A stretch of DNA of 25,709 nucleotides. It comes from Pseudomonadota bacterium (GTDB lineage: Bacteria > Pseudomonadota > Gammaproteobacteria > Burkholderiales > Gallionellaceae). Below the pieces are notes generated by a model. It saw nothing but the letters and a program-made list of their open reading frames with translations, was not told the DNA's origin and made no database searches. Position 1 is the first letter of the stretch. Each line of letters starts with the position of its first letter. The DNA is taken from the NCBI GenBank assembly GCA_021822115.1, contig JAJZSA010000032.1:1-25709 (forward strand). Reading direction: 5' to 3'. Of the stretch, positions 1 through 13,407 are shown one piece after another. Position numbers and translations under genes: made by a program.

Positions 1-2373
1 CGGCGCCTCATTGGCGATCCTGTACATCAGCTGCGCCATGGAATCCCCTTCGAAAGGAAGCTTACCACAGGCCAGTTGATACAGGCTCACTCCCAGCGAG
101 AACAGGTCGGAGTGCCCGTCGATCTTGGCCCCGGAAAGTTGTTCCGGCGACATGTATGAAGGCGTCCCGAGCACCATCCCGGTCTTGGTCTTGGAAGAAT
201 CGGTGATGCGGGCGATCCCGAAATCAGTGACTTTCACCGTATCGGAGGTCGGGTCGTACATGATGTTGGCCGGCTTGATGTCGCGATGCACCACGTTCTG
301 CGCATGGGCGTAGGCCAAGGCATCCGCCACCCGCGCAACGATGGACAGCACCTGCGGCAGCGGCAGCAGCTTATCGGCCTTGGTGTACGGGATGAGATCC
401 TGTCCTTTGAGGAATTCCATGGCGATATAGGCCAGATCGTGTTCCTCGCCGGCATCGTACATGGTCACGATATTGGGATGGTTCAGACGGCCGGCCGTCT
501 CTGCCTCGCGGAAGAAACGCGCCTTCACTTCTTCCAGTTCATCCGGTTCGAACTCCTGCGACAAGGCCATGGTCTTGATCGCCACGATCCGGCCGATCTT
601 CGGGTCCTTGCCCAGATACACCACCCCCATGGCGCCCTTGCCCAACTCCTTCTCGATCTCATAGCGCCCCAGCATAGGCTTGGACAGATTGGATCTATCC
701 AGCTTCATCGTGCTCTCATTGCTGCGCCCGGTCGTCCCGCCGAGGATGATGGTCTCCGCCATGGCATGCGATTGCGAGATGCGCGTCTCCAGATCACGGA
801 ACTTGGGGTTATGTTGGGCGATGTACTTGAAAACCGCCTCCGCCTTGTTGAACTGGCGCTTGCGCTCGAAATCCAGCCCCAGGTTGTACAGCACATCCAT
901 CAGGCCGTCGTCCATCGGCACCTTGCGCAGCTTGTCGAATGCCATGTCCAGTTGCCCCTGCCCCTGGAAAGCCAGGCCGAGCATGCGATTGCTCTCGGCC
1001 GATTCGGCCTCGGAACGCTCCTTGCCACGCTCGGTGACCAGAAAGCGTTTGGTGGTGACCAGCAGATGGCCGACCAACAACAAGGCGGCAGGCAACATCA
1101 ACTGCAGCCACAGCGCCTGGGTGGTCATCAGCACGAAGTGGATGGACAGCAAGGCAATGAACAGCAGCGCGGTCACGCCCGCGGCTGCTCCGGCGCCCAG
1201 CCTGGGCAGCACGAACAGCAAATACAGCGCGATCAGCGCGAACACCCCCATGCGGGCCTGCATCGCCCACGGCGGCACCACGAAGAAATCCTGCTGGAGG
1301 ATGCTGGAGACCGCATGCGCCAGTGTCACCACGGGCGGCGTGACTGCCGACACAGGGGTCACCTGCATGGAACCCACCCCCGCCGCCGTCGCGCCGATCA
1401 ACACGATCTTGTCGCGATATTTCGCCGGCGGGATCTTGCCGCTCAGCACATCGAAGAAAGAATCTACCTGGAATGCCGGACGCCCCGCCTGATCGGTATA
1501 GAAATAGGTATTCATGCGCAACGCGGCATCGGTTGCGATGCGCAGATTGCCGAGCGCCACGCCCGCGCCCGGGCGCACCTGGATATCCTGCACCCCCAGG
1601 TTGAGACTGCGCGCGGCCAACATCAACGACAGCGATGGATACAAGCGGTCGTAATAGCGCACCAGCAAGGGCTCGGTGCGTACCCCGCCATCGATGTCCG
1701 GCAATGCATTCAGGTGCCCCAGCGCAGCGGCCTGCAGCCCCAGCAAAGGGATAGGCGCCAACACATCAAGTGCTGGCAACGGGGTATAACCGGCGGCCGC
1801 CGTGACATCCGCGAGACTGCTGTGCGTCACATAGTCCGGCAAAGGGGCGTCCGGATTGCCTTGCGGCTCGCCCACCTCGAAGTACAGCCCCAACAGGACA
1901 TTGTGGATGCGCCCCATGCTATCTGCGAGCTTCTGGTCGTTGTCCAGATGCTGCAAGGCCTCGCTCAGCAAGCCTTGCAACTCTTGCCACTGTTCGGGAT
2001 GGGTCTGCGCCAGATCGGTCTGTTGCAGCAGCGTCGCGATGTTGACGATGTAGTCCAGCCCGGCATCAACCTGAGGCTCGAAGAAGAAGATGGTCTGACC
2101 GACCACCTTGGGCTGCCCCTCTGCCAGGATATCCAACAACTTGGCCTGGATCTCGCGTGGCCACGGCCAACGCCCCAGATTGGCGATACTCTCGTCGTCG
2201 ATAGCGATGATGGCGATGCGGTCACTCGGCTGGCGAGAGGATTCTCGCCCCCCCCAGTCATAGGCTTTGCGTTCCAGGCTCTGGATCAGGTCGGTAGGTG
2301 CGAGCGCCAGGAAAACCACCACCACCGCCAGGGCGGTGAACCAGTCCGTTTTCCAGAATGCCGTTTTCCTCAT
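1..2373 (-). CDS. CHASE2-domain membrane serine/threonine protein kinase (C-terminus cut by window edge)
   Basis: Reading frame open from an ATG at 2373 to the window edge (791 codons), so the C-terminus is missing. Residues about 10-28 form one membrane helix. Residues about 30-365 read as a CHASE2 sensor (AIIAIDDESIANLGRWPWPR early, KIVLIGATAAG near the end), expected in the periplasm. Residues about 376-440 contain two or three hydrophobic helices. The cytoplasmic kinase domain starts near 573, with a glycine loop (GKGAMG, around 582), the VAIK lysine (K600), catalytic HRDIKPAN (D698), DFG (D717) and the SPE version of the APE motif (E744), so it should be active. The activation loop carries several Thr/Ser for autophosphorylation. 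In-frame ATGs at 2388 and 2391 are alternatives; 2373 has a CAGGG upstream. The ligand cannot be read from the sequence. It lies 101 bp after usp, probably as its own unit. Confidence 0.93.
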   Translation of the reverse strand, partial: MRKTAFWKTDWFTALAVVVVFLALAPTDLIQSLERKAYDWGGRESSRQPSDRIAIIAIDDESIANLGRWPWPREIQAKLLDILAEGQPKVVGQTIFFFEPQVDAGLDYIVNIATLLQQTDLAQTHPEQWQELQGLLSEALQHLDNDQKLADSMGRIHNVLLGLYFEVGEPQGNPDAPLPDYVTHSSLADVTAAAGYTPLPALDVLAPIPLLGLQAAALGHLNALPDIDGGVRTEPLLVRYYDRLYPSLSLMLAARSLNLGVQDIQVRPGAGVALGNLRIATDAALRMNTYFYTDQAGRPAFQVDSFFDVLSGKIPPAKYRDKIVLIGATAAGVGSMQVTPVSAVTPPVVTLAHAVSSILQQDFFVVPPWAMQARMGVFALIALYLLFVLPRLGAGAAAGVTALLFIALLSIHFVLMTTQALWLQLMLPAALLLVGHLLVTTKRFLVTERGKERSEAESAESNRMLGLAFQGQGQLDMAFDKLRKVPMDDGLMDVLYNLGLDFERKRQFNKAEAVFKYIAQHNPKFRDLETRISQSHAMAETIILGGTTGRSNESTMKLDRSNLSKPMLGRYEIEKELGKGAMGVVYLGKDPKIGRIVAIKTMALSQEFEPDELEEVKARFFREAETAGRLNHPNIVTMYDAGEEHDLAYIAMEFLKGQDLIPYTKADKLLPLPQVLSIVARVADALAYAHAQNVVHRDIKPANIMYDPTSDTVKVTDFGIARITDSSKTKTGMVLGTPSYMSPEQLSGAKIDGHSDLFSLGVSLYQLACGKLPFEGDSMAQLMYRIANEAP

Positions 2374-2436
2374 GTTCGCCCTGAGCATCATCGCGTGTTG
2401 AAAGTAAGCCGGGCGGATACTAATGCAAATTCCAGC

Positions 2437-2457
2437 ATCAATCCATACTTGATTGAT
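2437..2457. repeat. 21-bp inverted repeat upstream of the kinase gene
   Basis: Perfect 7-bp arms ATCAATC (2437-2443) and GATTGAT (2451-2457) are separated by 7 bases, inside the 101-bp gap between usp and the kinase gene. It is AT-rich and has no T-run on either side, so it is a poor intrinsic terminator. An operator or a weak mRNA 3' stem is equally possible. Confidence 0.35.
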
Positions 2458-2474
2458 TTATCAGCGCTTTGAGG

Positions 2475-2900
2475 TCAGCGAACGAAGGTCACCGGCATCG
2501 TTGCCGTTTCCGCCACTTGCTGTGCAACCGAACCCAGCAGGCGCTTGGCGAGGCCGCCCGCCCCGTGAGTGCCGAGCACCAGCAACGCGACCTGCTCCGT
2601 TTGCGCGAACTGCACGATAGCTGCGGCAGGTGCGCCGACACTCAGATGATAACGATAGGATAGCCCCGCCTCATCGAGCAGACGGCGTGCATCCTGCAAA
2701 GCGGCCATACCGCGCTCGACCTCGTAATCCTCGATAGTGCCGGGATCGATGAACAGCTTCACATTGCCGGTCGCCACATTGGGCTGCACATTGAGTAGCA
2801 ACAGTTCTGGCGGCTGGCGCAGCTCGGCGGCCAACTGCAGCACATGGCGCACCGCCTGCAAGGAGTGAGAGGAACCATCGATCGCCATCAATATCTTCAT
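2475..2900 (-). CDS. Universal stress protein, UspA family (ATP-binding type)
   Basis: 141 residues, a normal length for a single-domain UspA protein. It starts with the family's beta strand MKILMAIDGS, and the ATP-binding signature G-x2-G-x9-G-S is intact at residues 110-124 (GTHG...GS). It should therefore be a cytoplasmic, ATP-binding dimer of the MJ0577 type; such proteins help survival under stress, but their targets are rarely known. The start ATG overlaps the terC stop by 4 bp (ATGA) and has its own ribosome site (AAAGGAA, 8 nt upstream). It is the last gene of the sucC-sucD-terC-usp run, so its level should follow that of the TCA-cycle enzyme and the membrane protein. Confidence 0.93.
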   Translation of the reverse strand: MKILMAIDGSSHSLQAVRHVLQLAAELRQPPELLLLNVQPNVATGNVKLFIDPGTIEDYEVERGMAALQDARRLLDEAGLSYRYHLSVGAPAAAIVQFAQTEQVALLVLGTHGAGGLAKRLLGSVAQQVAETATMPVTFVR

Positions 2901-3649
2901 CTTTCGTTCCTTTCTTCATGTCCGGCAGGTGCTTGCACCCTGCCATCCGCCAGATCGTATATGCCTGCTGGCTTGCGCTGCAGGGCTAGCCACCTGCCGA
3001 CCGCCAACACCAGCACAGCCCCCAGCGCCGGCACCAGCCAGTGCAGATAATGATGCTCCACGATCAGTGGCTGCAGCGCGGCCTCGGTCACCAGCATCTC
3101 GCCCGCCACATAACCCAGCAATGCGCCGCCGCCATAGATGATCACTGGATAACGATCGATCAGCTTGAGGACGAACTGGCTGCTCCAGGCGATCATCGGG
3201 ATGCTGATGATGAGGCCGAAGGCCAGCAACCAGCCATTGCCCTTGGCCGCCGCCGCCACGCCCAAGACGTTGTCCAGGCTCATCACAAAATCGGCGACGA
3301 TGATGGTCTTCACCGCCCCCCACAGATTTGCCTCAGCCTTGATGCTACCCTCGCCATGCTCCTCGTCCTCCGGCAGGATCAACTTGATGCCGATCCACAA
3401 CAGCAACAATGCCCCGATCAGCTTCAGATACGGCAGCGCCAACAGGCCAACCGCAAAGAAAGTCAGCACCACGCGCAGACCGATCGCCCCGCCCACACCG
3501 TACAGGATGCCCTTGCGGCGTTGCGCTTCCGGCAGGTTGCGACAGGCCAGTGCGATCACCACCGCGTTGTCGCCCGACAACAGCAGGTCGATCATGATGA
3601 TCTTGAACACATCCAACCAGAACTGGCTGGTCTGCACCATCTCAAACAT
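2897..3649 (-). CDS. TerC-family integral membrane protein (YjbE/YkoY-like, probable metal exporter)
   Basis: 250 residues with about seven hydrophobic segments. It carries the two family acidic motifs inside helices: LLLSGDNAVV near residue 22 and the matching MSLDNVLGV near the middle. In TerC/YjbE/YkoY proteins these acidic residues are thought to bind a divalent metal. Bacillus members export Mn2+ and help load secreted metalloenzymes, so Mn or a related metal is the best guess here; tellurite resistance is historical and not implied. The polar C-terminal tail is Arg/Glu-rich and probably cytoplasmic. It starts 3 bp after sucD, with the ribosome site AAAGG inside the sucD end, and overlaps usp by 4 bp, so the three are very likely one transcript. 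Confidence 0.9.
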   Translation of the reverse strand: MFEMVQTSQFWLDVFKIIMIDLLLSGDNAVVIALACRNLPEAQRRKGILYGVGGAIGLRVVLTFFAVGLLALPYLKLIGALLLLWIGIKLILPEDEEHGEGSIKAEANLWGAVKTIIVADFVMSLDNVLGVAAAAKGNGWLLAFGLIISIPMIAWSSQFVLKLIDRYPVIIYGGGALLGYVAGEMLVTEAALQPLIVEHHYLHWLVPALGAVLVLAVGRWLALQRKPAGIYDLADGRVQAPAGHEERNER

Positions 3650-3652
3650 CGT

Positions 3653-4534
3653 TTAGCCTTTCAGTATCTTCTGCATCGTGCGCCCCATCTCCGCCGGATT
3701 GCGCGTGATATGGATACCACACGCCTCCATCACGGCGAGCTTGTCGTTGGCGCCCCCCTGACCGCCGGAGATGATCGCTCCGGCATGCCCCATACGCTTA
3801 CCTTCCGGCGCAGTGACTCCTGCGATGAAACCGACCACCGGCTTCTGCATGTTGGCCTTGATCCAGCGCGCGCACTCCTCCTCGTCGCTGCCGCCGATCT
3901 CACCCACCATGATCACTGCATCGGTGTCCGGATCGTCGTTGAACAGACGCATGACATCGATATGCTTGAGCCCGTTGATCGGGTCGCCGCCGATACCGAC
4001 GCAGGACGACTGACCGTAGCCCAGCGCAGTCAATTGCCCCACGGCCTCGTAGGTCAGGGTGCCGGAGCGCGACACCACGCCGATGCGACCCTTCTTGTGG
4101 ATGTGGCCGGGCATGATGCCGATCTTGATCTCGTCGGGCGTGATCAGACCCGGACAGTTCGGTCCGATAAGCAAGGTCTTCTTGCCCTGCATCTTGTAGC
4201 GCGTCCTGATCATGTCGTGCACCGGGATGCCCTCGGTGATACAGATGACCAGATCGAGATCGGCCTCGACCGCCTCGTCGATGGCCGCCGCCGCACCTGC
4301 AGGTGGGACGTAGATCACCGACACCGTTGCACCGGTCGCCGCTTTCGCATCGCGCACCGTGGCGTACACCGGGATGCCCTCGAAATCCTCGCCCGCCTTC
4401 TTGGGATTCACGCCCGCTACGAAACAATTGGCGCCGTTCGCATAGGCCTTGCACTGCTGGGTGTGGAACTGGCCGACCTTGCCGGTCATGCCCTGGGTGA
4501 TGACTTTGGTGTCTTTATTGATGAGTATGGACAT
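3653..4534 (-). CDS. sucD: Succinyl-CoA synthetase (succinate-CoA ligase), alpha subunit
   Basis: 293 residues, close to E. coli SucD. With SucC it interconverts succinyl-CoA and succinate while making ATP or GTP. The N-terminal CoA-binding Rossmann part begins [19 protein letters not shown]. The active-site phosphohistidine lies in GHAGAII at H250, close to H246 of the E. coli enzyme. The frame stays open upstream to 4729, but that extension is Arg/Gly-rich shadow of sucC. The ATG at 4534 has AAAGG 7 nt ahead and the canonical family N-terminus. Gap to sucC is 2 bp, to terC 3 bp. Cytoplasmic. Confidence 0.98.
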
Positions 4535-4536
4535 GA

Positions 4537-5700
4537 TTAACCTTTCGCCGCCGCGACGACCTTCTGCGCCGCATCCGCCATGTCGTTGCCGGAGATGATG
4601 GGCAAGCCGGAGTCGGCCAGTATCTTCTTGCCGAGATCGACGTTGGTGCCTTCCAGCCGCACCACCAGCGGCACGGCCAGATGCACCTCGCGCGCTGCCG
4701 CCACCACGCCTTCGGCGATCACGTCGCACTTCATGATGCCGCCGAAGATGTTCACCAGGATCGCCTTCAAGTGCGGATTCTTCAGCATCAGCTTGAATGC
4801 TTCCGTGACCTTTTCTTTCGAGGCACCACCGCCCACATCGAGGAAGTTGGCCGGACTGCCGCCGTACAGCTTGATGATGTCCATGGTCGCCATGGCCAGT
4901 CCGGCGCCGTTCACCAGACAGCCGATGTCGCCATCGAGCGAGATGTAGGACAGATCGAACTTCGATGCTTCGATCTCCGCCGGATCCTCCTCGTCGAGGT
5001 CGCGCATGGCGACGATCTCGGGATGACGGTACAGCGCGTTGGAATCGAAATTGAACTTGGCATCCAGTGCCACGACCTTGTTGTCTGCGGTCAGGATCAG
5101 CGGGTTGATCTCGGCCAGCATCGCATCCTTCTCGACAAACGCGCGATATAGCCCCTGCAGCACCTTTACTGCCTCGGCCGCCGCAACGGCGGGGATGCCG
5201 ATCTTGTGCGCCGTACTCGCAGCATCCGCCTCCGTCAGACCGGACACCGGATCGATACGCACGGTATGGATCTTGTCAGGAGAATGTTTGGCGACCTCCT
5301 CGATCTCCATGCCGCCTTCGCTGGAGGCCAGCAAAGCCACGCGCTGGGCGGCGCGATCCACGACCATGCCGACGTAGAATTCCTTGACGATGGCCGCTCC
5401 TTCCTCGACCAGCAGGCGGCGTACTGGCTGTCCTTGCGGACCGGTCTGGTGCGTGACCAGTTGCATGCCCAGGATCTGGCTGGCGTACTGGCGCACCTCG
5501 TCCAGCGACTTCGCCACTTTCACGCCGCCGCCCTTGCCGCGCCCACCGGCATGGATCTGCGCCTTCACCACCCAGACCTTGCCGCCCAGTTCCTGTGCGG
5601 CGGCAACCGCCTCATCGACGCTGAAACACGCTTTGCCGCGCGGCGTCGGCACGCCGTACTCGCGCAGTATCTCTTTACCTTGGTATTCGTGGATCTTCAT
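4537..5700 (-). CDS. sucC: Succinyl-CoA synthetase, beta subunit (ADP/GDP-forming)
   Basis: 387 residues, the usual SucC length. An ATP-grasp domain opens with [17 protein letters not shown] and carries the glycine-rich nucleotide loop GGRGKGGGV at residues 52-60. The C-terminal ligase-CoA domain contains [11 protein letters not shown], typical of SucC. It forms the heterodimer with SucD, which follows after 2 bp. It is the first gene of sucC-sucD-terC-usp. The upstream 124 bp hold a candidate extended -10 (5731-5740) and the terminator of the oppositely located porin unit. The ribosome site is weak (GATGAG). Confidence 0.98.
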
Positions 5701-5824: not shown

Positions 5825-7948
5825 TCAGAAGTCCCAGCGCAGACCGGCAGAACCAAAGATGCGGGTGATCTTGGTCGTCACCTGCGAACCTTGGTTCTTG
5901 GTGCTTTCCAGACCGAGGTCGGCATCGAAGGTCAACTGATCGCCCAGACGATAGGTGCCGCGCACCATGGGCGAGATGCGTGTCGTCACCGCATTGAATT
6001 GATCGGTCTGTTTGTACAGCTGCAACGAGCTGTCCAGCCCCCAGCCGCCGCGCACGTCAACATGGTTATACACATAGAGCGTGTTGCCCTTGACGGTGCT
6101 GCTGGTGTTCAACGCTGCGCTGAACGTCCAGATGTCGCCCGCCATCAACAGCCCGGTACCAATCAACTGGCCGGAGACGCTCTTCTCAGCACCGCGCCCC
6201 GGATTGGCAGCAAGATAACCTTGCGCGGTATTCAGCGTACCGCTGGCGGCAGTCCCGGTGATGTTGGAGACACGAAAATCACCACCGACCTGCCATTTGC
6301 TGTTCAACGGCTTGGTGATACCGACCTGGCCCATGTTGGAGGTGGCGGTACGCGCCAATGCCAGATCGCGCAAAGCCGTGGCCGACATCGCCTGCTGCAA
6401 TACCGCGATGGAAGAATTGGTCGCACCGTACAGTGCATTGCGGATGCTCAGCGACGGGGTCTTGCGGTGGTCGACCATGAAGTTGATGGAAGCATCAAAG
6501 GCATTGATGTTGCCCATCAACTGCGCAGCATTCAGCGCCTTGAAATTGATGTCGTAATCCACCAAAGCATAAGCCGAAGTCTTGTCCTCATAATAGCGCC
6601 ACTCGGCACCGACCGCGCGACGATCCAGCACACCTTCCGCCGTCTGGTTGATGCCATACAGCGAATAATTGCCACTATCCACACTGGCGCCGAAGAACGA
6701 AGGCGCCTTGCTGTCGCTGTAATCCGCAATCCTGCCGGCAACCGCATTGGCACGCAGATACGCGGCATCGCCATAGGAGGCAGCAATACCATCGAAATAT
6801 CCGAGCACGCCGCCGCCATTGGAAGACTGGCGACCGACGCGCATCAGGTAATCCTGCTTGCGCCCCTTGATCTCGCCATACAGCGAACTGACACGCGACT
6901 GACTGGGTTTGCCAGACAGGAAGTTCTTGGTCTCGTTGCCACGGAACACCAGACGGCCATCCATCTCATCGCTGGTATAACGCATCGAAGCGTCTTCGGT
7001 CGCGATCATCATCGACTGGTCGGTGAGCGTCACAGACTGCGTTTCGCTCGCCTGGTTGAAGGTAGTGGTCGAATTGATCTTGCTCTTACCGAAGTAGTAA
7101 CGCGCCGAGACACTGCCGAAATTGCTCCAACGTGCCGCCTGCTTGCGCTCACCCGCCTCCACGATGCCGGGGCCGCTCGCCTTGCCGGACAAACCGGCCA
7201 GACGCTGCACCACGCGCGGCACGCCTTCACCTTGAGGATACAGGTTCAGGTACAGGTCATATTCGGTCTTCGCCTTGTCATACTGACCGGCCCGCTCACG
7301 CGCCACACCGACCCATTCCTGGGCATCTTCGGTGTAATCGTTGGGCGGTAAGGACAACAACTTATTGAAGGCCGAGACCGCGGTATCGTTATCCTGCTGC
7401 GCCAAAGCTTCGCGCGCTTGTTTCATCAGCTCGAAGCCCTGCTTGTTGTTCTCGGCCAGATTGGCATCGGCCGGCGTCGCGCGCAATGGCCTCACGGCAG
7501 GCAAAGCCGGCAAAGCGACCTGCGCCACGGCACGGTCCGGCTTGATGGTGATCAACAAGCTGCGTTGATCGCTGCCCGGTGCGACGGAATACTGCGCTTC
7601 ACGTGCGAACTCGATCACCATCTTGGGGCGTGTCGTTTGATCGCGCGTGGTCACGGTGAAAGACGGGATCAATCCGGACGGCGGTGAATTGCGTGTCTCA
7701 TTGTCCGCCCATTTCTCATTGACATCGCCGCCCGGGGCACGTTCGTAGAAGATCTCCAGCGTCTTGCCGCTATTGGCCGGGAAATGGCGTACATAGCGGA
7801 TAGGCGAGGTCGTCCGGATCGTCGCCACGATACCGTCGGTCTTGTACTCCAGCGTCACATCGTCCAGTGGCTGCGCCATGGCCGCGGTCGCAGCCAGCCC
7901 CAAGGACAGTGCCGCAACAAAGGAAATCCGATTGATGAATGAAGACAT
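5825..7948 (-). CDS. Outer-membrane beta-barrel porin with N-terminal periplasmic helical-repeat domain (putative conduit porin)
   Basis: 707 residues from the ATG at 7948, which has a good ribosome site (GGGAG); the frame runs on to 8020 but without signal-peptide character. Signal peptide MSSFINRISFVAALSLGL..AMA. Residues about 27-155 form a beta-rich domain loosely like AMIN-type domains. Residues about 165-250 are helical, TPR-like repeats (REALAQQDNDTAVSAFNKLL, AGQYDKAKTEYDLYLNLYP). From about 275 to the end, alternating polar/aromatic strands end in GSAGLRWDF; a terminal Phe is the BAM recognition signature of barrel proteins. The roughly 430-residue barrel suits about 20 strands. It is the last gene of a unit encoding two multiheme cytochromes, so a porin-cytochrome conduit is inferred. 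Sequence similarity to MtrB/PioB is not obvious to me. An unrelated porin cannot be excluded. Confidence 0.85.
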   Translation of the reverse strand: MSSFINRISFVAALSLGLAATAAMAQPLDDVTLEYKTDGIVATIRTTSPIRYVRHFPANSGKTLEIFYERAPGGDVNEKWADNETRNSPPSGLIPSFTVTTRDQTTRPKMVIEFAREAQYSVAPGSDQRSLLITIKPDRAVAQVALPALPAVRPLRATPADANLAENNKQGFELMKQAREALAQQDNDTAVSAFNKLLSLPPNDYTEDAQEWVGVARERAGQYDKAKTEYDLYLNLYPQGEGVPRVVQRLAGLSGKASGPGIVEAGERKQAARWSNFGSVSARYYFGKSKINSTTTFNQASETQSVTLTDQSMMIATEDASMRYTSDEMDGRLVFRGNETKNFLSGKPSQSRVSSLYGEIKGRKQDYLMRVGRQSSNGGGVLGYFDGIAASYGDAAYLRANAVAGRIADYSDSKAPSFFGASVDSGNYSLYGINQTAEGVLDRRAVGAEWRYYEDKTSAYALVDYDINFKALNAAQLMGNINAFDASINFMVDHRKTPSLSIRNALYGATNSSIAVLQQAMSATALRDLALARTATSNMGQVGITKPLNSKWQVGGDFRVSNITGTAASGTLNTAQGYLAANPGRGAEKSVSGQLIGTGLLMAGDIWTFSAALNTSSTVKGNTLYVYNHVDVRGGWGLDSSLQLYKQTDQFNAVTTRISPMVRGTYRLGDQLTFDADLGLESTKNQGSQVTTKITRIFGSAGLRWDF

Positions 7949-7988
7949 GCTCTTCTCCCGACTAACTTGATTTGTTGTTATGCGACTC

Positions 7989-8031
7989 GAACAGGGTGCC
8001 GTGCCACTACTCTTGGACACGGCACCCGTTC
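7989..8031 (-). other. Intercistronic stem-loop between the 12-heme cytochrome and porin genes
   Basis: A perfect 10-bp stem pairs 7994-8003 (GGGTGCCGTG) with 8018-8027 (CACGGCACCC). It extends by 4 bp (7989-7992 with 8028-8031) past one bulged base; loop of 14 nt. On the transcribed strand the following bases are not U-rich, so it should not terminate fully. It could block 3'-exonucleases or mark a processing point, setting different amounts of cytochrome and porin. Confidence 0.65.
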
Positions 8032-8040
8032 AGGGTTGGC

Positions 8041-9087
8041 TTACCAGCCGCCGTAAGTTGCCGCTCGGCTGTGCTCATGGCAGGCGGTAGTGCAGTTATT
8101 GCCACTACTTCCCTCATGCGACTTCTTGGTTTTTTGATTGTTGCCCGCATAGGGTGTCGGGCTGATGTGGCAAGTTTCACAGGTATAGGAAGCTGTACTG
8201 TAGTTGTGCAGCACCGTCACGTTGACCAAGCCAGTCGCTGCGGTGTGACAAGCGGTACATGCAACACCCGCGTTATACGGGATATGGTTGGACGGTTTCG
8301 CCCCCAAGGCAGGAGTCCACGAACGAGTGGTATTGATATGGCATTCGCTGCAATCCGCACCATTGATAGCAACGTGTCCTGCCGGGGTCGTGATGGCCAC
8401 CGTGCCGTTGTGGCAGCTATCGCAACGGCCTGTTGCGCCGACGTGATCATAAGGCGCCGGATTCCATCTGACGTAGTTGTGGCACCGCTGACAAGCATAG
8501 GTAGCCATGCCAGTGCGGGTATGCGCAGTGCTCACGCCCTTGTACCAGATGTTCTGGCCCGCGATATGACACCCAGCCTGATCGCAACTGCCGACTGAGT
8601 TATTGTGGTTCCAGCTTGCCGGATTCCAGGCAAAGGTGCGGTGACACTGGTCACAGGACTTCTGCGCTTTGTTCACATTACTGTTGTGGCTTGCCGGACG
8701 GCCTGCCGCCTGACGTCCGTTATGGCAGGACGCGCACTGCCCGACCATCGCGGAACCATGGTTATAGCGAGCCCCCAGCCAGGTCGAGGTATTGAAATGG
8801 CAGGACTCGCAAGGCGCATCGGTCACGATGTGCCTGTCGTTCTTGGGCGTCGCCACCACACGCTTGCCGACGGCGTGACAGCCATCGCAGTTTCGCGGCG
8901 TGCCCTTGAATACACCGCCGATGTGGCAGGACTCACAGGCGGCCGCCGCATGGCCCCCGGTCAGCGTGAAGCCGGTCGTAGCGTGATTGAAATCACGCCC
9001 CACCTGCTGTGCGGCTTGTGCCTGCAGTGTGGCCGTCGCCAGCATGACGGCGAACAACGCGCCGAAATATCGTCCCAGTCTCTCCAT
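8041..9087 (-). CDS. Multiheme c-type cytochrome, 10 CXXCH plus two atypical heme motifs (up to 12 hemes)
   Basis: 348 residues; start at 9087 chosen for its strong ribosome site (GAGGAGGTG). Signal peptide MERLGRYFGALF..AQA, so exported; heme is added in the periplasm. CXXCH motifs begin at C51, C67, C93, C118, C145, C199, C222, C246, C277 and C303. A CX4CH (C168-H174, CDQAGCH) and a CX3CH (C332-H337, CTTACH) fit the regular spacing and probably bind heme too. Thirteen other His can act as distal ligands. Its first module (FNHATTGFTLTGGH, then CESCH and CDGCH) matches the repeat of the neighbouring 24-heme protein, so the two share ancestry. No lipobox or membrane anchor is seen. It may sit in or outside the porin, or in the periplasm; sequence alone does not tell. 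75-bp gap to the 24-heme gene. Confidence 0.95.
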   Translation of the reverse strand: MERLGRYFGALFAVMLATATLQAQAAQQVGRDFNHATTGFTLTGGHAAAACESCHIGGVFKGTPRNCDGCHAVGKRVVATPKNDRHIVTDAPCESCHFNTSTWLGARYNHGSAMVGQCASCHNGRQAAGRPASHNSNVNKAQKSCDQCHRTFAWNPASWNHNNSVGSCDQAGCHIAGQNIWYKGVSTAHTRTGMATYACQRCHNYVRWNPAPYDHVGATGRCDSCHNGTVAITTPAGHVAINGADCSECHINTTRSWTPALGAKPSNHIPYNAGVACTACHTAATGLVNVTVLHNYSTASYTCETCHISPTPYAGNNQKTKKSHEGSSGNNCTTACHEHSRAATYGGW

Positions 9088-9162
9088 GTCACACCTCCTC
9101 GATAGATCATTCACTACCCGACGCGACTCCCCTGCCGCTCAGGCCGACACTCTCCCAATCCT

Positions 9163-10977
9163 CTACTTCTTCGGAACGATGACGCCCATCTTTACCGTTT
9201 TCCAGTCATTGCCTTCATGACAACGGTCGCAGCGGTCGCCGAAATTGCCGTTATGTACATCATCCCGTTCATGACAGCTGCCGCAGGCGGTCGACGCTAC
9301 GACCTTCTTGGCCATGGGCTTGGCGTGGCAAGCATAGCACTTGTTCGCGGTCTTCTTGTGCGGGCCATCCAGCTTGAAGTTGGTCTTGTTGTGATCAAAG
9401 TCCCAAGCGCCCCACGAACGCGTGGAGTGGCAAACCTGGCATTCGGTTCCCAGACGGCGACGATGCACCTTGTCGTCGTCCTTCTCATGGCAGGACCAGC
9501 AATCGGACTTGGTGTCCTTGAAGGTGGTTTCTTCATGACACTTCTTGCAGGCAACCAAGGCATGGCGCCCCAGCAACGGGAAGGTCGACATACGGTTATG
9601 GTTGAATTTATCCACCTGCTTCCAGTCATCCTCGACGTGGCAGCTCTCGCACTTCTTGCCTTCCTGGCCCTTATGCGCTTTGTCGTCGTCCTTCTGGTGA
9701 CAGCTCACACAAGCCTGTTGCAGCTTGTCCTTGTACAGGTCGCCCTTGTGACAAGCGCTACATTTCGCCTTCTTGTGCTTGCCCAACAACGGGTACTTGG
9801 TCTGCTTGTCGTGGTCGAACTTGATGTCCTTCCAGTCGTCCGCCACGTGGCAGGTCTCGCACTTCACGCCGAAGTTGCCCTTGTGCGCCTTGTCGTCATC
9901 CTTCTTGTGGCAGGACACACAGGTCATCTGCAATTTATCCTTGTACAGATCGCCCTTATGGCAAGCGGTACATTTCAGCGGCGGTGATTTGTGCTTGCCG
10001 ACCAGGTCGAATTTGGTCTGCTTGTTGTGGTCGAATTTGATCTCTTTCCAGTCCTTCTCGACGTGACAGGTCTCGCACTTGGCGCCGAACTTGCCCTTGT
10101 GCGCCTTGTCGTCGTCCTTCTTGTGACACTCGTTACACTTCTTGGGCGTGCCCTTGTATTTCTTGTCGATGTGGCACTTGTCGCACTTCACATCGACGTG
10201 CTTGCCCAACAAGGGGAACTCGGTCTTGTCGTGATCGAACTTGGTTTGCTTCCAGTCTTTGTCGGTGTGGCAACTCTCGCACTTCTTGCCCAATTTGCCC
10301 TTGTGCGCCTTGTCATCATCCTTCTGGTGACAGGACACACAGGCCATCGGCGTGTCCTTGAACTTGTTGTCGATGTGACATTTCACGCATTTCACATCGA
10401 CGTGCTTGCCGCGCAGCTTGAACTTGGTCTTGTCGTGATCGAACTCGGTGGTCTTCCAGTCCTTCTCGATATGGCACTTGCCGCAATCCTGCCCCAGGCC
10501 ACCTTTATGTTTATCATCCTTCTTGTGGCAGCTATAGCAAAGCTGCGGCGCTTCGCGGAACTTCAAACCCGGCTTGTGGCAGCTCTCGCATTTCACCTTG
10601 GAATCGAGGTGCCCGCCCCTCAGCTCGAAATCGGTCTGCTTGTGGTCGAACTTGGCATGGTCGAACTCGGCCGCCTTGAAGTCACGTCCCTTGTGCTCGG
10701 AGTGGCACTCCTTACATTCCTTGTCCGCATCCAGACGACCGTGATAACCGGCCTTCTCCGCCACATCCTTGCCCACATCCTTGTGGCAATCCATGCACAG
10801 ACGGTTCTGCGCCTTCTTGTCGAACTTCTTGTGACAGAGTTCGCACTTCTCCTCATCCTTGGCATGCCCCTTGATGACATCACCGGGCATCAGCAATTTA
10901 TTGGCGTGCGCCTGCAACGGCAGGGCGAACAGGAACAAGATCAGTGTGAGCGTGCGAAGTACCATCATTCGAACCAT
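9163..10977 (-). CDS. 24-heme c-type cytochrome built from eight tri-heme modules
   Basis: 604 residues from the ATG at 10977, which overlaps the stop of the upstream gene (TAATG); no ribosome site is visible, so it probably depends on translational coupling. Signal peptide with cleavage near A25. Exactly 24 CXXCH motifs run from C45 to H587. They fall into eight modules of three hemes; modules 2-7 are 68-72 residues each and follow CxxCH, then CxSCHxKDDDKAHKG, then CExCH, DWK, FDHDKT and GKH. There are about 25 non-motif His, enough for bis-His ligation of every heme. Very rich in Lys and Asp, with few hydrophobics: a soluble, elongated heme wire. It most likely bridges the periplasm between the cytochrome b and the outer-membrane porin, though an outside position is possible. 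Iron oxidation is inferred, not shown. Confidence 0.97.
   Translation of the reverse strand: MVRMMVLRTLTLILFLFALPLQAHANKLLMPGDVIKGHAKDEEKCELCHKKFDKKAQNRLCMDCHKDVGKDVAEKAGYHGRLDADKECKECHSEHKGRDFKAAEFDHAKFDHKQTDFELRGGHLDSKVKCESCHKPGLKFREAPQLCYSCHKKDDKHKGGLGQDCGKCHIEKDWKTTEFDHDKTKFKLRGKHVDVKCVKCHIDNKFKDTPMACVSCHQKDDDKAHKGKLGKKCESCHTDKDWKQTKFDHDKTEFPLLGKHVDVKCDKCHIDKKYKGTPKKCNECHKKDDDKAHKGKFGAKCETCHVEKDWKEIKFDHNKQTKFDLVGKHKSPPLKCTACHKGDLYKDKLQMTCVSCHKKDDDKAHKGNFGVKCETCHVADDWKDIKFDHDKQTKYPLLGKHKKAKCSACHKGDLYKDKLQQACVSCHQKDDDKAHKGQEGKKCESCHVEDDWKQVDKFNHNRMSTFPLLGRHALVACKKCHEETTFKDTKSDCWSCHEKDDDKVHRRRLGTECQVCHSTRSWGAWDFDHNKTNFKLDGPHKKTANKCYACHAKPMAKKVVASTACGSCHERDDVHNGNFGDRCDRCHEGNDWKTVKMGVIVPKK
9358..10608 (-). 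repeat. Tandem tri-heme coding repeats (modules 2-7)
   Basis: Six consecutive 204-216 bp units encode residues 124-540 of the 24-heme cytochrome. The DNA is visibly repetitive, for example recurring blocks encoding KDDDKAHKG and FDHDKT. The conserved blocks lie in phase with the reading frame, as expected from internal gene duplication. Confidence 0.9.
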
Positions 10978-11876
10978 TAGTAAGCGTGGACAGCGTAGAC
11001 GTGATAGATGGCGCTGAACACCATCATGAACACCAGCGGGATATGGAAGATGTGCCACCAGGAGAACAGCCGCTCATAGGTATGGAATTGGCCCGCATCG
11101 CGCACCGCATGCAGATAGGCCACGATCTTCTCGCGATAATCCTCGAACATCGCCTCCATCCCCTTGACCTGATCGGCGGAGAAATTCTTCTCCTTCGCCT
11201 GCGCCTCCATCACCTGACGCAACTCGGCCGGCAACTGGCGGGAAAGGACGGCAGAACGCCAGCCGATGCGGGCGAAGCTGATGAAGCCATAGCCTTTCTC
11301 CTTGGCATACAGCTCGGCTTGGGCATGGAACGCTTCCAGCTTCTGTTCGACCTGCGGCGCGAAACCGAACATGGTCTTGATGTCACCAGTCTGCTCCATC
11401 TGGGCACGCAGTTCATTCACCGTCGCCTGGCGGCCATACAGGCCGTGGTGGATCTTGGTATAGAAAAAACGGCCGAAGGTGCCGCTACCGGACACCAGCA
11501 GCATGCAGTACATCGCCACCGCCGCATTGATGGAGCCGGTCGGGTGGATGAAGGGGATGTAAACGTGATAGGTGGAATGGAAGATGATGAACAGGGGGCC
11601 AAGGATACCCAGCACCATGTGCCACTTGAACCAGGTCGGCAGAAAACCGACGTTCTCCAGCAACTTCCAGCGCTTGCGCAAGGGATAGAGCAGCAACAAG
11701 GCCATCATCAGGCCGCCGGTCAGACCCAAGTTATAGCCGAAATCGAACAATTCCTCGCCCGGCTTGTAATAAGTCTGCGGATAGACAACGAAGTAGCCGG
11801 CGAACGTGATGATGCCGACGATGGAGATAAAGATCATCCAGTAGAGATGTTCGGATTGTTTCTTCGTTCTTTTCAT
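10977..11876 (-). CDS. Inner-membrane cytochrome b-type protein, candidate diheme quinone-linked partner
   Basis: 299 residues with no signal peptide; the N-terminus is positive (MKRTKKQSE). Five hydrophobic helices lie near residues 12-32, 47-65, 83-108, 115-138 and 272-296. Helix 3 has H86 and H100, helix 5 has H278 and H292; each pair is 14 apart, the spacing that binds two b hemes across a membrane. Further His (H104, H111, H143, H144, H275, H297) cluster at helix ends. Residues about 145-270 form a charged helical domain of unknown role. As first gene of the cytochrome-porin unit it probably exchanges electrons between the quinone pool and the 24-heme cytochrome. It is not recognisably NapC/CymA (no CXXCH). 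Its stop overlaps the next start. A promoter sits 35 bp ahead of the ATG; no clear ribosome site. Confidence 0.85.
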   Translation of the reverse strand: MKRTKKQSEHLYWMIFISIVGIITFAGYFVVYPQTYYKPGEELFDFGYNLGLTGGLMMALLLLYPLRKRWKLLENVGFLPTWFKWHMVLGILGPLFIIFHSTYHVYIPFIHPTGSINAAVAMYCMLLVSGSGTFGRFFYTKIHHGLYGRQATVNELRAQMEQTGDIKTMFGFAPQVEQKLEAFHAQAELYAKEKGYGFISFARIGWRSAVLSRQLPAELRQVMEAQAKEKNFSADQVKGMEAMFEDYREKIVAYLHAVRDAGQFHTYERLFSWWHIFHIPLVFMMVFSAIYHVYAVHAY

Positions 11877-11910
11877 GGTGGCTTACAAAATCTGGGCTCA
11901 AACGCGCGAA

Positions 11911-11939
11911 ATTTTAACCGCGAATACGGCTGCTGTCTT
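11911..11939 (-). promoter_or_regulatory. Sigma70-like promoter of the cytochrome-porin operon
   Basis: On the minus strand the -35 AAGACA (11939-11934, 4 of 6 consensus) is followed after exactly 17 bp by the -10 TAAAAT (11916-11911, 5 of 6). Transcription would start near 11904, giving a leader of about 28 nt before the ATG at 11876. The -35 lies inside the first copy of the 9-bp direct repeat. Confidence 0.6.
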
Positions 11940-11956
11940 AATAAATTTGTCTTAAT
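11934..11956. repeat. Tandem 9-bp direct repeat, candidate shared operator
   Basis: TGTCTTAAT occurs at 11934-11942 and again at 11948-11956, separated by AAATT (14-bp period). Copy 1 contains the -35 of the leftward promoter, copy 2 most of the -35 of the rightward promoter. A protein dimer bound here could affect both units. The regulator is unknown. Confidence 0.6.
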
Positions 11957-11975
11957 CCACACAGCCCCCTAGAAT
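11947..11975 (+). promoter_or_regulatory. Sigma70-like promoter of the ferredoxin-flavoprotein gene
   Basis: -35 TTGTCT (11947-11952, 4 of 6) and -10 TAGAAT (11970-11975, 5 of 6) are 17 bp apart. Start expected near 11982, giving a leader of about 115 nt to the ATG at 12097. It points away from the leftward promoter, and their -35 regions are only 7 bp apart. Confidence 0.55.
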
Positions 11976-12096
11976 GCGGCGCTTGCGACAGTGGCGAATA
12001 TGACAAAGTTCAATATCGACACACCATAGCCAGACCGCGACAACGGCCAAATCGCCAGCGGCCCTATCCTTTCAATCACTTAAATCGCGAAATGAC

Positions 12097-13407
12097 ATGG
12101 ATATCCTCGACCTTTCCGTCTACCTGATCCCCCTCATCGTCATCATGCTGTTCTATCTCGGCCGCCGCAAGAAGACCGAACAGAGCTCCGTGGAACAGAT
12201 GAAAGAAGCCATCGCGCAGGGTCTGACCGAGCCGGCCTCTCTGCATCCGGTGATCGACCCGCGCCTGTGTCTCGGTTCCGGCAGCTGCATCAAGGCCTGT
12301 CCCGAGGGCGCCCTGGGCATGATCAAAGGCAAGGCCGTGCTCATCAATCCGACTTATTGCATCGGCCACGGCGCCTGCGCCGCCGCCTGCCCGCACGATG
12401 CCATCACACTGGTGTTCGGCACCGAGAAACGCGGCATGGACATCCCGCAGGTCGACCCCAACTTCGAGACCAACATCAAAGGCATCTATATCGCCGGCGA
12501 ACTGGGCGGCATGGGCCTGATCCGCAAGGCCGCCAGCCAAGGCTCACAGGCAATCAATTCCATCGCCAAGCTCAAAGGCACCCACCATTTCGACTACGAC
12601 GTGGTGATCGTGGGTGCCGGTCCCGCCGGCCTCGGTGCCGCATTGGGCGCCATTGAGCACAAGCTGAAATACCTGGTGGTCGAACAGGAAGTCTCGCTCG
12701 GCGGCGCCATCTTCCAGTATCCGCGTAACAAGATCGCCATGACCGCCCCGGTCAAACTCCCGGTCATTGGCGAGATGCAATTCAAGGAAGTCAGCAAGGA
12801 GAAACTGCTGGAATGGTGGCTGGGCATCATCGAGAAGACCGGCATCAAGCTCAACTACAACGAACGCATGGACAACATCACCCCCGAAGGTGATGGCTTC
12901 GTCGTGAAGACCGCCAAGGGCGAGTACAAGACGCGCACCGTATTGCTCGCCATCGGCCGCCGCGGCACGCCACGCAAACTGGGCGTGCCCGGCGAAGAGC
13001 TGCCCAAGGTGGTGTATCGCCTGATCGACCCGGAACAATACCGCAACATGCACGTGGCTGTGGTCGGCGGCGGCGACAGCGCGGTGGAAGCGGCCATGTC
13101 CATCGCCGAAGAACCGGGCACCACCGTCTCGCTGCTGGCCCGTGGCGAAGATTTCGGCAAGGCATTCGGCGGTGCAAAACCGAAGAACCGCGACAAGCTG
13201 AAAGCGATGTCCGACGCCGGTAAAGTGAAGATCTATTTGAAGTCCAGCATCAAACAGATCCACAAGGACACGGTCGACATACGCTTCGGCGATGAAGAAG
13301 CCAACATCCCCAACGACGGCGTCATCGTCTGCGCAGGCGGCACCTTGCCGACTCCGTTCCTGAAACAGATCGGCGTGATGGTGGAGACCAAATTCGGCAC
13401 TGCTTGA
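12097..13407 (+). CDS. Membrane-anchored ferredoxin-flavoprotein oxidoreductase with permuted thioredoxin-reductase-like fold
   Basis: 436 residues. One helix at about 6-21 anchors it to the inner membrane. Residues 53-105 form a two-cluster ferredoxin domain with cysteines C58, C64, C68 and C88, C94, C98. The second Cys of each CxxCxxCxxxCP motif is replaced (S61, H91). Residues about 115-158 (KGIYIAGELGGMGLIRKA) look like the C-terminal FAD-closing segment of thioredoxin reductase-type enzymes. Next come the N-terminal FAD motif VIVGAGPAGLG (170-180) and an NAD(P) motif AVVGGGDSAVEAA. The protein ends just after VIVCAGGTLPT, where the closing segment would normally follow: a circular permutation. 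There is no redox CxxC, so it is no thioredoxin reductase. It probably moves electrons between NAD(P)H and an Fe-S or quinone partner. Divergent from the cytochrome operon; no clear ribosome site. Confidence 0.88.
   Translation: MDILDLSVYLIPLIVIMLFYLGRRKKTEQSSVEQMKEAIAQGLTEPASLHPVIDPRLCLGSGSCIKACPEGALGMIKGKAVLINPTYCIGHGACAAACPHDAITLVFGTEKRGMDIPQVDPNFETNIKGIYIAGELGGMGLIRKAASQGSQAINSIAKLKGTHHFDYDVVIVGAGPAGLGAALGAIEHKLKYLVVEQEVSLGGAIFQYPRNKIAMTAPVKLPVIGEMQFKEVSKEKLLEWWLGIIEKTGIKLNYNERMDNITPEGDGFVVKTAKGEYKTRTVLLAIGRRGTPRKLGVPGEELPKVVYRLIDPEQYRNMHVAVVGGGDSAVEAAMSIAEEPGTTVSLLARGEDFGKAFGGAKPKNRDKLKAMSDAGKVKIYLKSSIKQIHKDTVDIRFGDEEANIPNDGVIVCAGGTLPTPFLKQIGVMVETKFGTA

Follow-up and report, generated by a model that had tools for sequence, protein, structure and literature searches.

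PCC3 clusters have been described from Sideroxydans lithotrophicus ES-1, Sideroxydans sp. CL21 and Leptothrix (PMC5566968, PMC10734462, PMC12442390, PMC13386937). In this study we analysed a stretch of DNA of 25,709 nucleotides (25.7 kb, G+C content 60%) assigned to the Gallionellaceae, hereafter called the window. Between positions 5825 and 11876 it encodes an inner-membrane protein (IMP), two multiheme cytochromes (MHC1 and MHC2) and a porin, and next to them a flavoprotein, which we named FAD-FeS. The four genes, their order and the motifs of IMP are the same as in the clusters of these organisms. MHC1 has 24 hemes, as has been published for PCC3, and copy 2 of CL21, with 24 and 12 hemes, is like the window. 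PCC3 is described in these papers as a set of four genes, and a keyword search of the main texts of six PCC3 papers gave no mention of a FAD-FeS-like protein tied to PCC3. A '4Fe-4S ferredoxin' cluster (360) with one heme motif is listed for 41 of 87 genomes in PMC10734462; since none of 59 FAD-FeS copies contains a heme motif, this is probably another protein.

Other electron conduits are comparable in part. MtrCAB, MtoAB and PioAB follow the same logic, with an outside cytochrome, a porin and a periplasmic cytochrome, but the wire of the window has 24 hemes instead of 10, and a predicted cytochrome b of its own takes the place of CymA (PMC13322032). The preliminary description of this DNA had seen no signature of MtrCAB, PioAB or Cyc2, and model searches led to the same result. 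The MtrB_PioB porin family gave no match to the window proteins at E<=0.01, the decaheme DmsE/MtrA-type model gave 26.1 bits for MHC2, against a cut-off of 192.2, and no match for MHC1, and the OmcA/MtrC models were not reached either. Cyc2 is a monoheme cytochrome fused to a porin, and the porin of the window has no CXXCH. PCC4 clusters possess an IMP with the same motifs, and some have an Fe-S gene upstream of it; however, they contain three periplasmic cytochromes of 4, 5 and 10 hemes and no extracellular one (PMC5566968), whereas the window has two multiheme cytochromes with 24 and 12 sites. MsrQ-Fre, NOX and ferric reductases likewise pair a membrane-spanning diheme b protein with a flavoprotein partner or domain in the cytoplasm (PMC11031084). 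They differ in that the flavoprotein of the window is of thioredoxin reductase (TrxR) type with Fe-S centres, not of FNR type, and in that its outlet would be a multiheme wire.

The four-gene cluster is thus of a known kind. What appears to be new, judging from the keyword search, is a fifth gene, FAD-FeS, which tracks PCC3.

Co-occurrence of FAD-FeS with PCC3

In the window FAD-FeS (12097-13407, plus strand, 436 aa) and IMP (10977-11876, minus strand, 299 aa) are transcribed away from each other, on either side of an intergenic region of 220 bases (11877-12096) in which both promoters presumably lie. The preliminary description, according to which the four genes cover every step from the quinone pool to the cell surface, had overlooked the flavoprotein. 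Among 42 loci that we collected by IMP similarity, FAD-FeS adjoins IMP in 35, divergently in all 35, with a gap of at most 1551 bases and down to an IMP identity of 32%. Two of the other seven loci are cut inside IMP (L028, L041), three hold solo IMPs (L029, L030, L036) and two a full cluster (L031, L038).

Profiles of IMP and FAD-FeS were both searched in the same genomes. The family sample comprised 150 genomes from the family to which G001 belongs (titled Sideroxydans lithotrophicus, it holds locus L002); the order sample comprised 300 genomes and the phylum sample 398, with overlap in few genomes (G001, G007, G029, G041, G409). IMP matches were regarded as strong at E<1e-50, and the threshold for FAD-FeS was E<=1e-80; the cut-off agrees with a search of 17 genomes at 1e-40, in which the next class of matches came at 1e-45 after 1e-207. 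In the family sample, IMP was found in 61 and FAD-FeS in 64 of the 150 genomes, and both in 60 (Fisher p 8e-36, which ignores the relatedness of genomes whose completeness is not given and is therefore no true probability). The four genomes that have FAD-FeS without IMP (G022, G032, G095, G106) all carry a PCC3 porin, on contigs that break off at the cluster, and all 64 FAD-FeS genomes of this sample hold IMP or a PCC3 porin. Of the 66 FAD-FeS matches in the family, 54 have an IMP less than 1.5 kb away, and every one of these is divergent from it. In the order sample strong IMP matches and FAD-FeS occur in the identical 16 genomes, as divergent neighbours in 15, and in the phylum sample the two proteins occur in the identical six genomes.

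Weak and partial IMP matches (E 1e-10 to 1e-15; 9 of 25 in the order and 2 of 8 in the phylum sample) were not counted, and the 11 genomes concerned are without FAD-FeS at E<=1e-80. Those examined (L073, L074, L075) belong to other cytochrome clusters; L073:290-6980 and L074:6262-16001 contain 10-heme cytochromes and HbpS-like domain proteins and no FAD-FeS.

FAD-FeS also accompanies PCC3 in other arrangements. It lies co-directionally behind the porin in G409 and, if its two contigs are neighbours, in G484 (loci L063 and L066), and away from IMP in L064 and L067/L068. In G586 ccm genes stand between FAD-FeS and IMP, and in G782 FAD-FeS is found on another contig. An ankyrin-repeat gene on the same strand overlaps the end of FAD-FeS by four bases in G484 (L066:4669-6672). 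The PCC3 clusters of G054 have 21/17 and 24/28 CXXCH motifs; by these heme counts, which are those given for Slit_0867-0870 and Slit_1446-1449 of ES-1 (PMC8788666), G054 is presumably ES-1 itself. One of its FAD-FeS copies is located just behind the cluster-1 porin, in convergent orientation, and the other between queC and sucC. The latter is the window's own chromosomal site, and in G054 FAD-FeS is intact there with the four PCC3 genes absent (L055). The same queC/sucC arrangement was found in G062 (L056), and towards sucC in G106 (L054), where the other side lies off the contig. Two subfamilies of IMP occur in G149, and next to each lies the FAD-FeS subfamily that corresponds to it.

The FAD-FeS protein and its proposed place in the conduit

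FAD-FeS consists of an N-terminal transmembrane (TM) helix, a ferredoxin-like region and a FAD/NAD(P) domain (Pfam, NCBIfam). FAD and NAD(P) domains are common to YpdA, TrxR and TrxR-type ferredoxin-NADP reductase, and the flavin part of FAD-FeS matches YpdA and TrxR, but its last strand-helix (residues ~122-160) precedes the first. When residues 107-164 were moved behind the rest, the end of the TrxR match shifted from position 246 to 298 of 300 and the score from 76.3 to 88.4 bits, whereas three shuffled segments gave 75.6-75.8 bits. A phmmer search aligned residues 169-436 with YpdA 6-272 and residues 122-137 with YpdA 279-294, the second piece alone being not significant. These results suggest that FAD-FeS is a circularly permuted flavoprotein of the TrxR/YpdA type, with a ferredoxin and a TM segment placed ahead. 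YpdA and TrxR employ catalytic cysteines. The YpdA cysteine is replaced by alanine in FAD-FeS (A177; GAGPAG, compared with GGGPCG in YpdA) and a CXXC motif was not found in the protein, which makes an electron carrier likelier than a disulphide reductase.

The Fe-S motifs read C58xxS61xxC64xxxC68P and C88xxH91xxC94xxxC98P. At the second cysteine position of the first motif 54 of 58 copies have serine (34) or alanine (20), with cysteine in L040, L042, L064 and L066; in the second motif this position is histidine in all 59 copies. Single-cluster ferredoxins with such motifs have been described to hold [3Fe-4S] centres with shifted potentials, more positive with His or Asn and lower with Ser (PMC6237146), and by analogy FAD-FeS may carry such centres as well. 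The charges that follow its TM helix would place the protein on the cytoplasmic side.

IMP shows the features by which PCC3 inner-membrane proteins are defined (PMC5566968), namely a length of about 300 aa, an SGXXG motif and a pair of WX3HX13H motifs: in its 299 aa a motif scan found W82 and W274 at the head of the two motifs and SGTFG at 131. Five TM helices with the histidine motifs on TM3 and TM5, which are also part of the definition, are predicted from hydropathy peaks and positive-inside counts, and an alignment of 17 sequences shows no variation in the four ligand histidines of the predicted diheme b (H86/H278, H100/H292). By charge counts the N-terminus lies inside, as do the TM2-TM3 loop and the TM4-TM5 loop of ~130 residues, and the C-terminus lies outside; with this topology one predicted heme lies near each membrane face. 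Two HX13H on TM3 and TM5 are the mark of the FRD superfamily, and flavin-fed proteins of the ferric-reductase/NOX type show this histidine pattern just as well (PMC5566968). IMP has no match to Pfam (E<=0.01), NCBIfam or PDB sequences. The diheme-b pattern on which the preliminary description had based a quinone-linked cytochrome b is therefore present, but neither family nor fold matches lend support to a quinone site, and we treat the quinone link as hypothetical.

There is, in our estimate, an even chance that the four genes form the PCC3 conduit and that FAD-FeS is its fifth, PCC3-specific component, which exchanges electrons between NAD(P)H and IMP. FAD-FeS would stand at the cytoplasmic face, where it would take or give hydride through its FAD with NAD(P)H, and its two unusual Fe-S centres would pass electrons one at a time to the heme on the N side of IMP, the putative inner-membrane diheme cytochrome b. 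Docking may take place near the large cytoplasmic TM4-TM5 hairpin of IMP. From the P-side heme, electrons would move to MHC1, a 24-heme wire across the periplasm, then to MHC2, an extracellular cytochrome inside the porin, and to the outside. IMP may additionally exchange electrons with quinone. The flow might run from NAD(P)H or quinone via IMP, MHC1 and MHC2 to the outside, or in reverse as far as quinone. A precedent is MsrQ, a diheme b protein that is fed by the separate flavin reductase Fre (PMC11031084). In G624 (L075:3568-7135) an FNR-type flavoprotein with 2Fe-2S (703 aa), a remote IMP-like protein (252 aa) and a 6-heme cytochrome follow each other in a run, which by analogy may represent the logic of FAD-FeS, IMP and MHC1 built from other parts.

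Several of our observations weigh against such a fifth component. G011, a genome with two IMPs whose completeness is not given, has IMP without FAD-FeS, and together with six genomes whose clusters are cut by contig ends it makes up seven family genomes with a PCC3 gene and no FAD-FeS. In 20 sucC-linked loci the FAD-FeS distances agree with those of SucC (0.65) no less than with those of IMP (0.64), and the apparent co-evolution of FAD-FeS with IMP over the porin rests on a single module swap, in L044/L045 (see below). The structure model of FAD-FeS is poor (pLDDT 64, Fe-S part <50), and a fold search with the IMP model (pLDDT 77) gave no informative match, also with regard to the FRD fold. 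To the same side belong the solo IMPs, which would point to quinone work without a flavoprotein, the type-B PCC3 clusters (e.g. cluster 2 of G054), which have no adjoining FAD-FeS, and the proximity of FAD-FeS to ccm genes, which fits a role in maturation.

Solo IMP paralogues, ~61% identical and without cytochromes, are found in G010 (L029 = L051), G073 (L059:8848-9813) and G011 (L030 = L048). A GGDEF gene precedes them, and downstream of them follow Peptidase_U32 genes, two plus SCP2 in G010 and G073 and one in G011. We take these neighbours to be UbiU/UbiV/UbiT-like, and their position hints that IMP-type proteins work with quinone. IMP could then be quinone-reactive and fill the quinone pool from a donor outside the cell (Fe(II), mineral or humics), as in the four-part model published earlier (PMC5566968), with FAD-FeS as a co-inherited side protein, for example in redox balancing. 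The HX13H pairs in IMP and the type-B clusters agree with it. This explanation seems rather doubtful to us, because across the three samples FAD-FeS occurs in no genome without IMP or a PCC3 porin and in nearly all genomes with them, even where it is unlinked, and because the expression of the ES-1 clusters on Fe(II), discussed below, does not favour it either.

FAD-FeS might also be a dedicated cytochrome c maturation factor, providing the reductant for attaching the 30 to 80 hemes per conduit. It adjoins ccmF/ccmH/ccmI in L064, ccmF/redoxin/ccmI in L068 and ccmI in L077, and it tracks PCC3 and not gene position. However, ccm genes are adjacent in three of the few loci with annotated neighbours, whereas IMP is the neighbour in most genomes; FAD-FeS contains neither CXXC nor the YpdA-type cysteine, and it was not found in 284 of the 300 order and 392 of the 398 phylum genomes sampled. 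We consider this role improbable.

The four-gene cluster of the window

The cluster is a PCC3 member of the already known four-gene kind. Besides the features of IMP, the definition (PMC5566968) includes heme-dense multiheme cytochromes, with a periplasmic one of 21-27 hemes, and the window has 24; the likeness to PCC3 noticed in the preliminary description is thereby borne out. Its placing in the Gallionellaceae agrees with relatives that are mostly titled Sideroxydans or Gallionellaceae, but PCC3 occurs outside this family too (PMC5566968; our order and phylum samples). For the family, a complete PCC3 set has been reported in 26 genomes and a partial one in 11 (PMC10734462).

We confirmed the four open reading frames, all on the minus strand and transcribed in the order IMP, MHC1 (9163-10977), MHC2 (8041-9087) and porin (5825-7948), and behind the porin a strong hairpin of the intrinsic terminator type (5806-5772, minus strand; 14 pairs, 10 of them G-C; folding z-score -2.57, with 3 of 200 shuffles equally good), in agreement with the preliminary description. 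The spacing of the genes suggests a single transcript. Neither terminator-like sites (8, compared with 8.2 in shuffles) nor promoter-like sites (3, compared with 4.2 by chance) are in excess in the region. The starts given earlier for MHC1, MHC2 and the porin were those of the longest open reading frames, and we moved all three to later ATGs because of ribosome-binding sites and a TAATG overlap. MHC1 begins at ATG 10977 (604 aa instead of 631), where TAATG forms a one-base overlap with the IMP stop; MHC2 begins at ATG 9087 with GAGGAGG ahead (348 aa), and the porin at ATG 7948 with GGGAGAAG ahead (707 aa).

Both cytochromes have Cytochrome_C7 matches. MHC1 is predicted to be periplasmic, and MHC2 extracellular, a location taken from the PCC3 literature. 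In the longest-frame versions of the proteins, on which motif counts and shuffles were run, MHC1 has 24 CXXCH (mean of the shuffled protein 0.31, maximum 3 in 2000 shuffles) and MHC2 has 10 CXXCH, one CX3CH and one CX4CH (CXXCH in the shuffled protein: mean 0.13, at most 2); the porin and IMP have none in the motif scan. The earlier figure of about 38 hemes is reached with 24 and up to 12 c-hemes and the two predicted b-hemes. One heme falls on 25 aa in MHC1 and, with 12 sites, on 29 aa in MHC2.

Beyond the first few hemes, MHC1 of the window is built of a triheme repeat every 66-72 aa (~70 aa). In 55 uncut MHC1 proteins of PCC3 loci the CXXCH number is 21 (13 proteins), 24 (32) or 27 (10) and never between; this tally sets aside four other uncut matches, two in L057 with split frames and those of L074 and L075 in other clusters. 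The same three numbers are given for the periplasmic cytochrome cluster in PMC10734462. Growth of MHC1 in triheme steps would fit a spacer cut to the periplasm, and the rule of 21, 24 or 27 hemes makes the relation of wire length to periplasm width testable. MHC2 has between 9 and 63 motifs, counting CXXCH, CX3CH and CX4CH together. In L057:3946-5695, MHC1 is distributed over two overlapping frames with 12 and 10 CXXCH, next to intact FAD-FeS and IMP, which is either a real break or an assembly error.

The porin has a signal-peptide-like start, a conserved N-terminal region without assigned fold, a region with TPR-like matches and a C-terminal F that is near-invariant in an alignment of 23 sequences. 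It is homologous to the porins of other PCC3 loci and is presumed to form an outer-membrane barrel.

The gene order is conserved: 32 of the 42 loci carry the four genes in the same order and on the same strand, seven are cut by a contig end and three (L029, L030, L036) have IMP without cytochromes. Lone porins, which would have spoken against a dedicated conduit, are not the rule, as the porin profile matches 70 of the 150 family genomes and 60 of these have IMP. The ten others have a contig break at or close to the cluster; eight of them show a cytochrome gene immediately next to the porin. Pairs of MHC2 and porin without IMP or MHC1 lie mid-contig in L095:4666-8121 and L096:5186-8516, in genomes that also hold the full set, and therefore porin and MHC2 can travel as an outer module. 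In L044 and L045 IMP is 35-37% but the porin 59-60% identical to the window, and FAD-FeS (57%) stays with the divergent IMP; it appears that inner and outer PCC3 parts were exchanged here. In both loci an open reading frame of 254-285 aa lies between IMP and FAD-FeS; that of L045 has no Pfam match. Positions 1-5700 of the window, following PCC3, contain genes for a CHASE2 - Ser/Thr protein kinase, terC, sucD and sucC, and the same order adjoins PCC3 in many of the fetched loci.

Direction of electron flow and possible function

Iron oxidation finds no support in the published expression data. In ES-1 both clusters were expressed at lower levels on Fe(II) compared with thiosulfate (PMC8788666). 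In the ES-1 magnetite proteome MtoA appeared on magnetite only; no such change was seen for the PCC3 proteins, and detection failed for the extracellular cytochrome of cluster 2 (PMC12016527). In CL21 both PCC3 copies were expressed above the mean, also on lactate, and of copy 2 the inner-membrane gene alone showed a significant increase in cells with the capacity for iron oxidation; the function of PCC3 is stated there to be untested (PMC12442390).

A further explanation, compatible with FAD-FeS as the fifth component, is that PCC3 is an electron sink or a mineral or humic reductase that leads electrons from NAD(P)H or quinol to the outside, and no iron oxidase. The NAD(P)H-type flavoprotein, presumed cytoplasmic, speaks for it, as do the thermodynamics. 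To our knowledge, there is no PCC3 reduction phenotype, which counts against it. The lower expression on Fe(II) in ES-1 (PMC8788666) and the expression above the mean on lactate in CL21 (PMC12442390) point the same way as the flavoprotein, and the rise of the copy-2 inner-membrane gene in cells capable of iron oxidation (PMC12442390) is contrary to it. We put export forward tentatively.

Electron transfer from NAD(P)H to the outside is downhill and runs with the membrane potential, whereas transfer from the outside to NAD+ would need energy, which inclines us towards export or a reversible valve. In its most specific form, which we regard as possible and still well short of probable, PCC3 with FAD-FeS would be a NOX-like or MsrQ-like exporter of five parts, in which a permuted flavo-Fe-S protein couples NAD(P)H directly to a heme wire via a diheme b protein.

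PCC3 is counted among the possible iron oxidases in environmental genomes, and FAD-FeS may show where the inner end of the wire leads. The partner points to a possibly outward flow of electrons and offers a concrete handle on PCC3 function. If the five-part exporter is true, clusters so far interpreted as iron oxidases would have to be seen as reductases or reversible valves.

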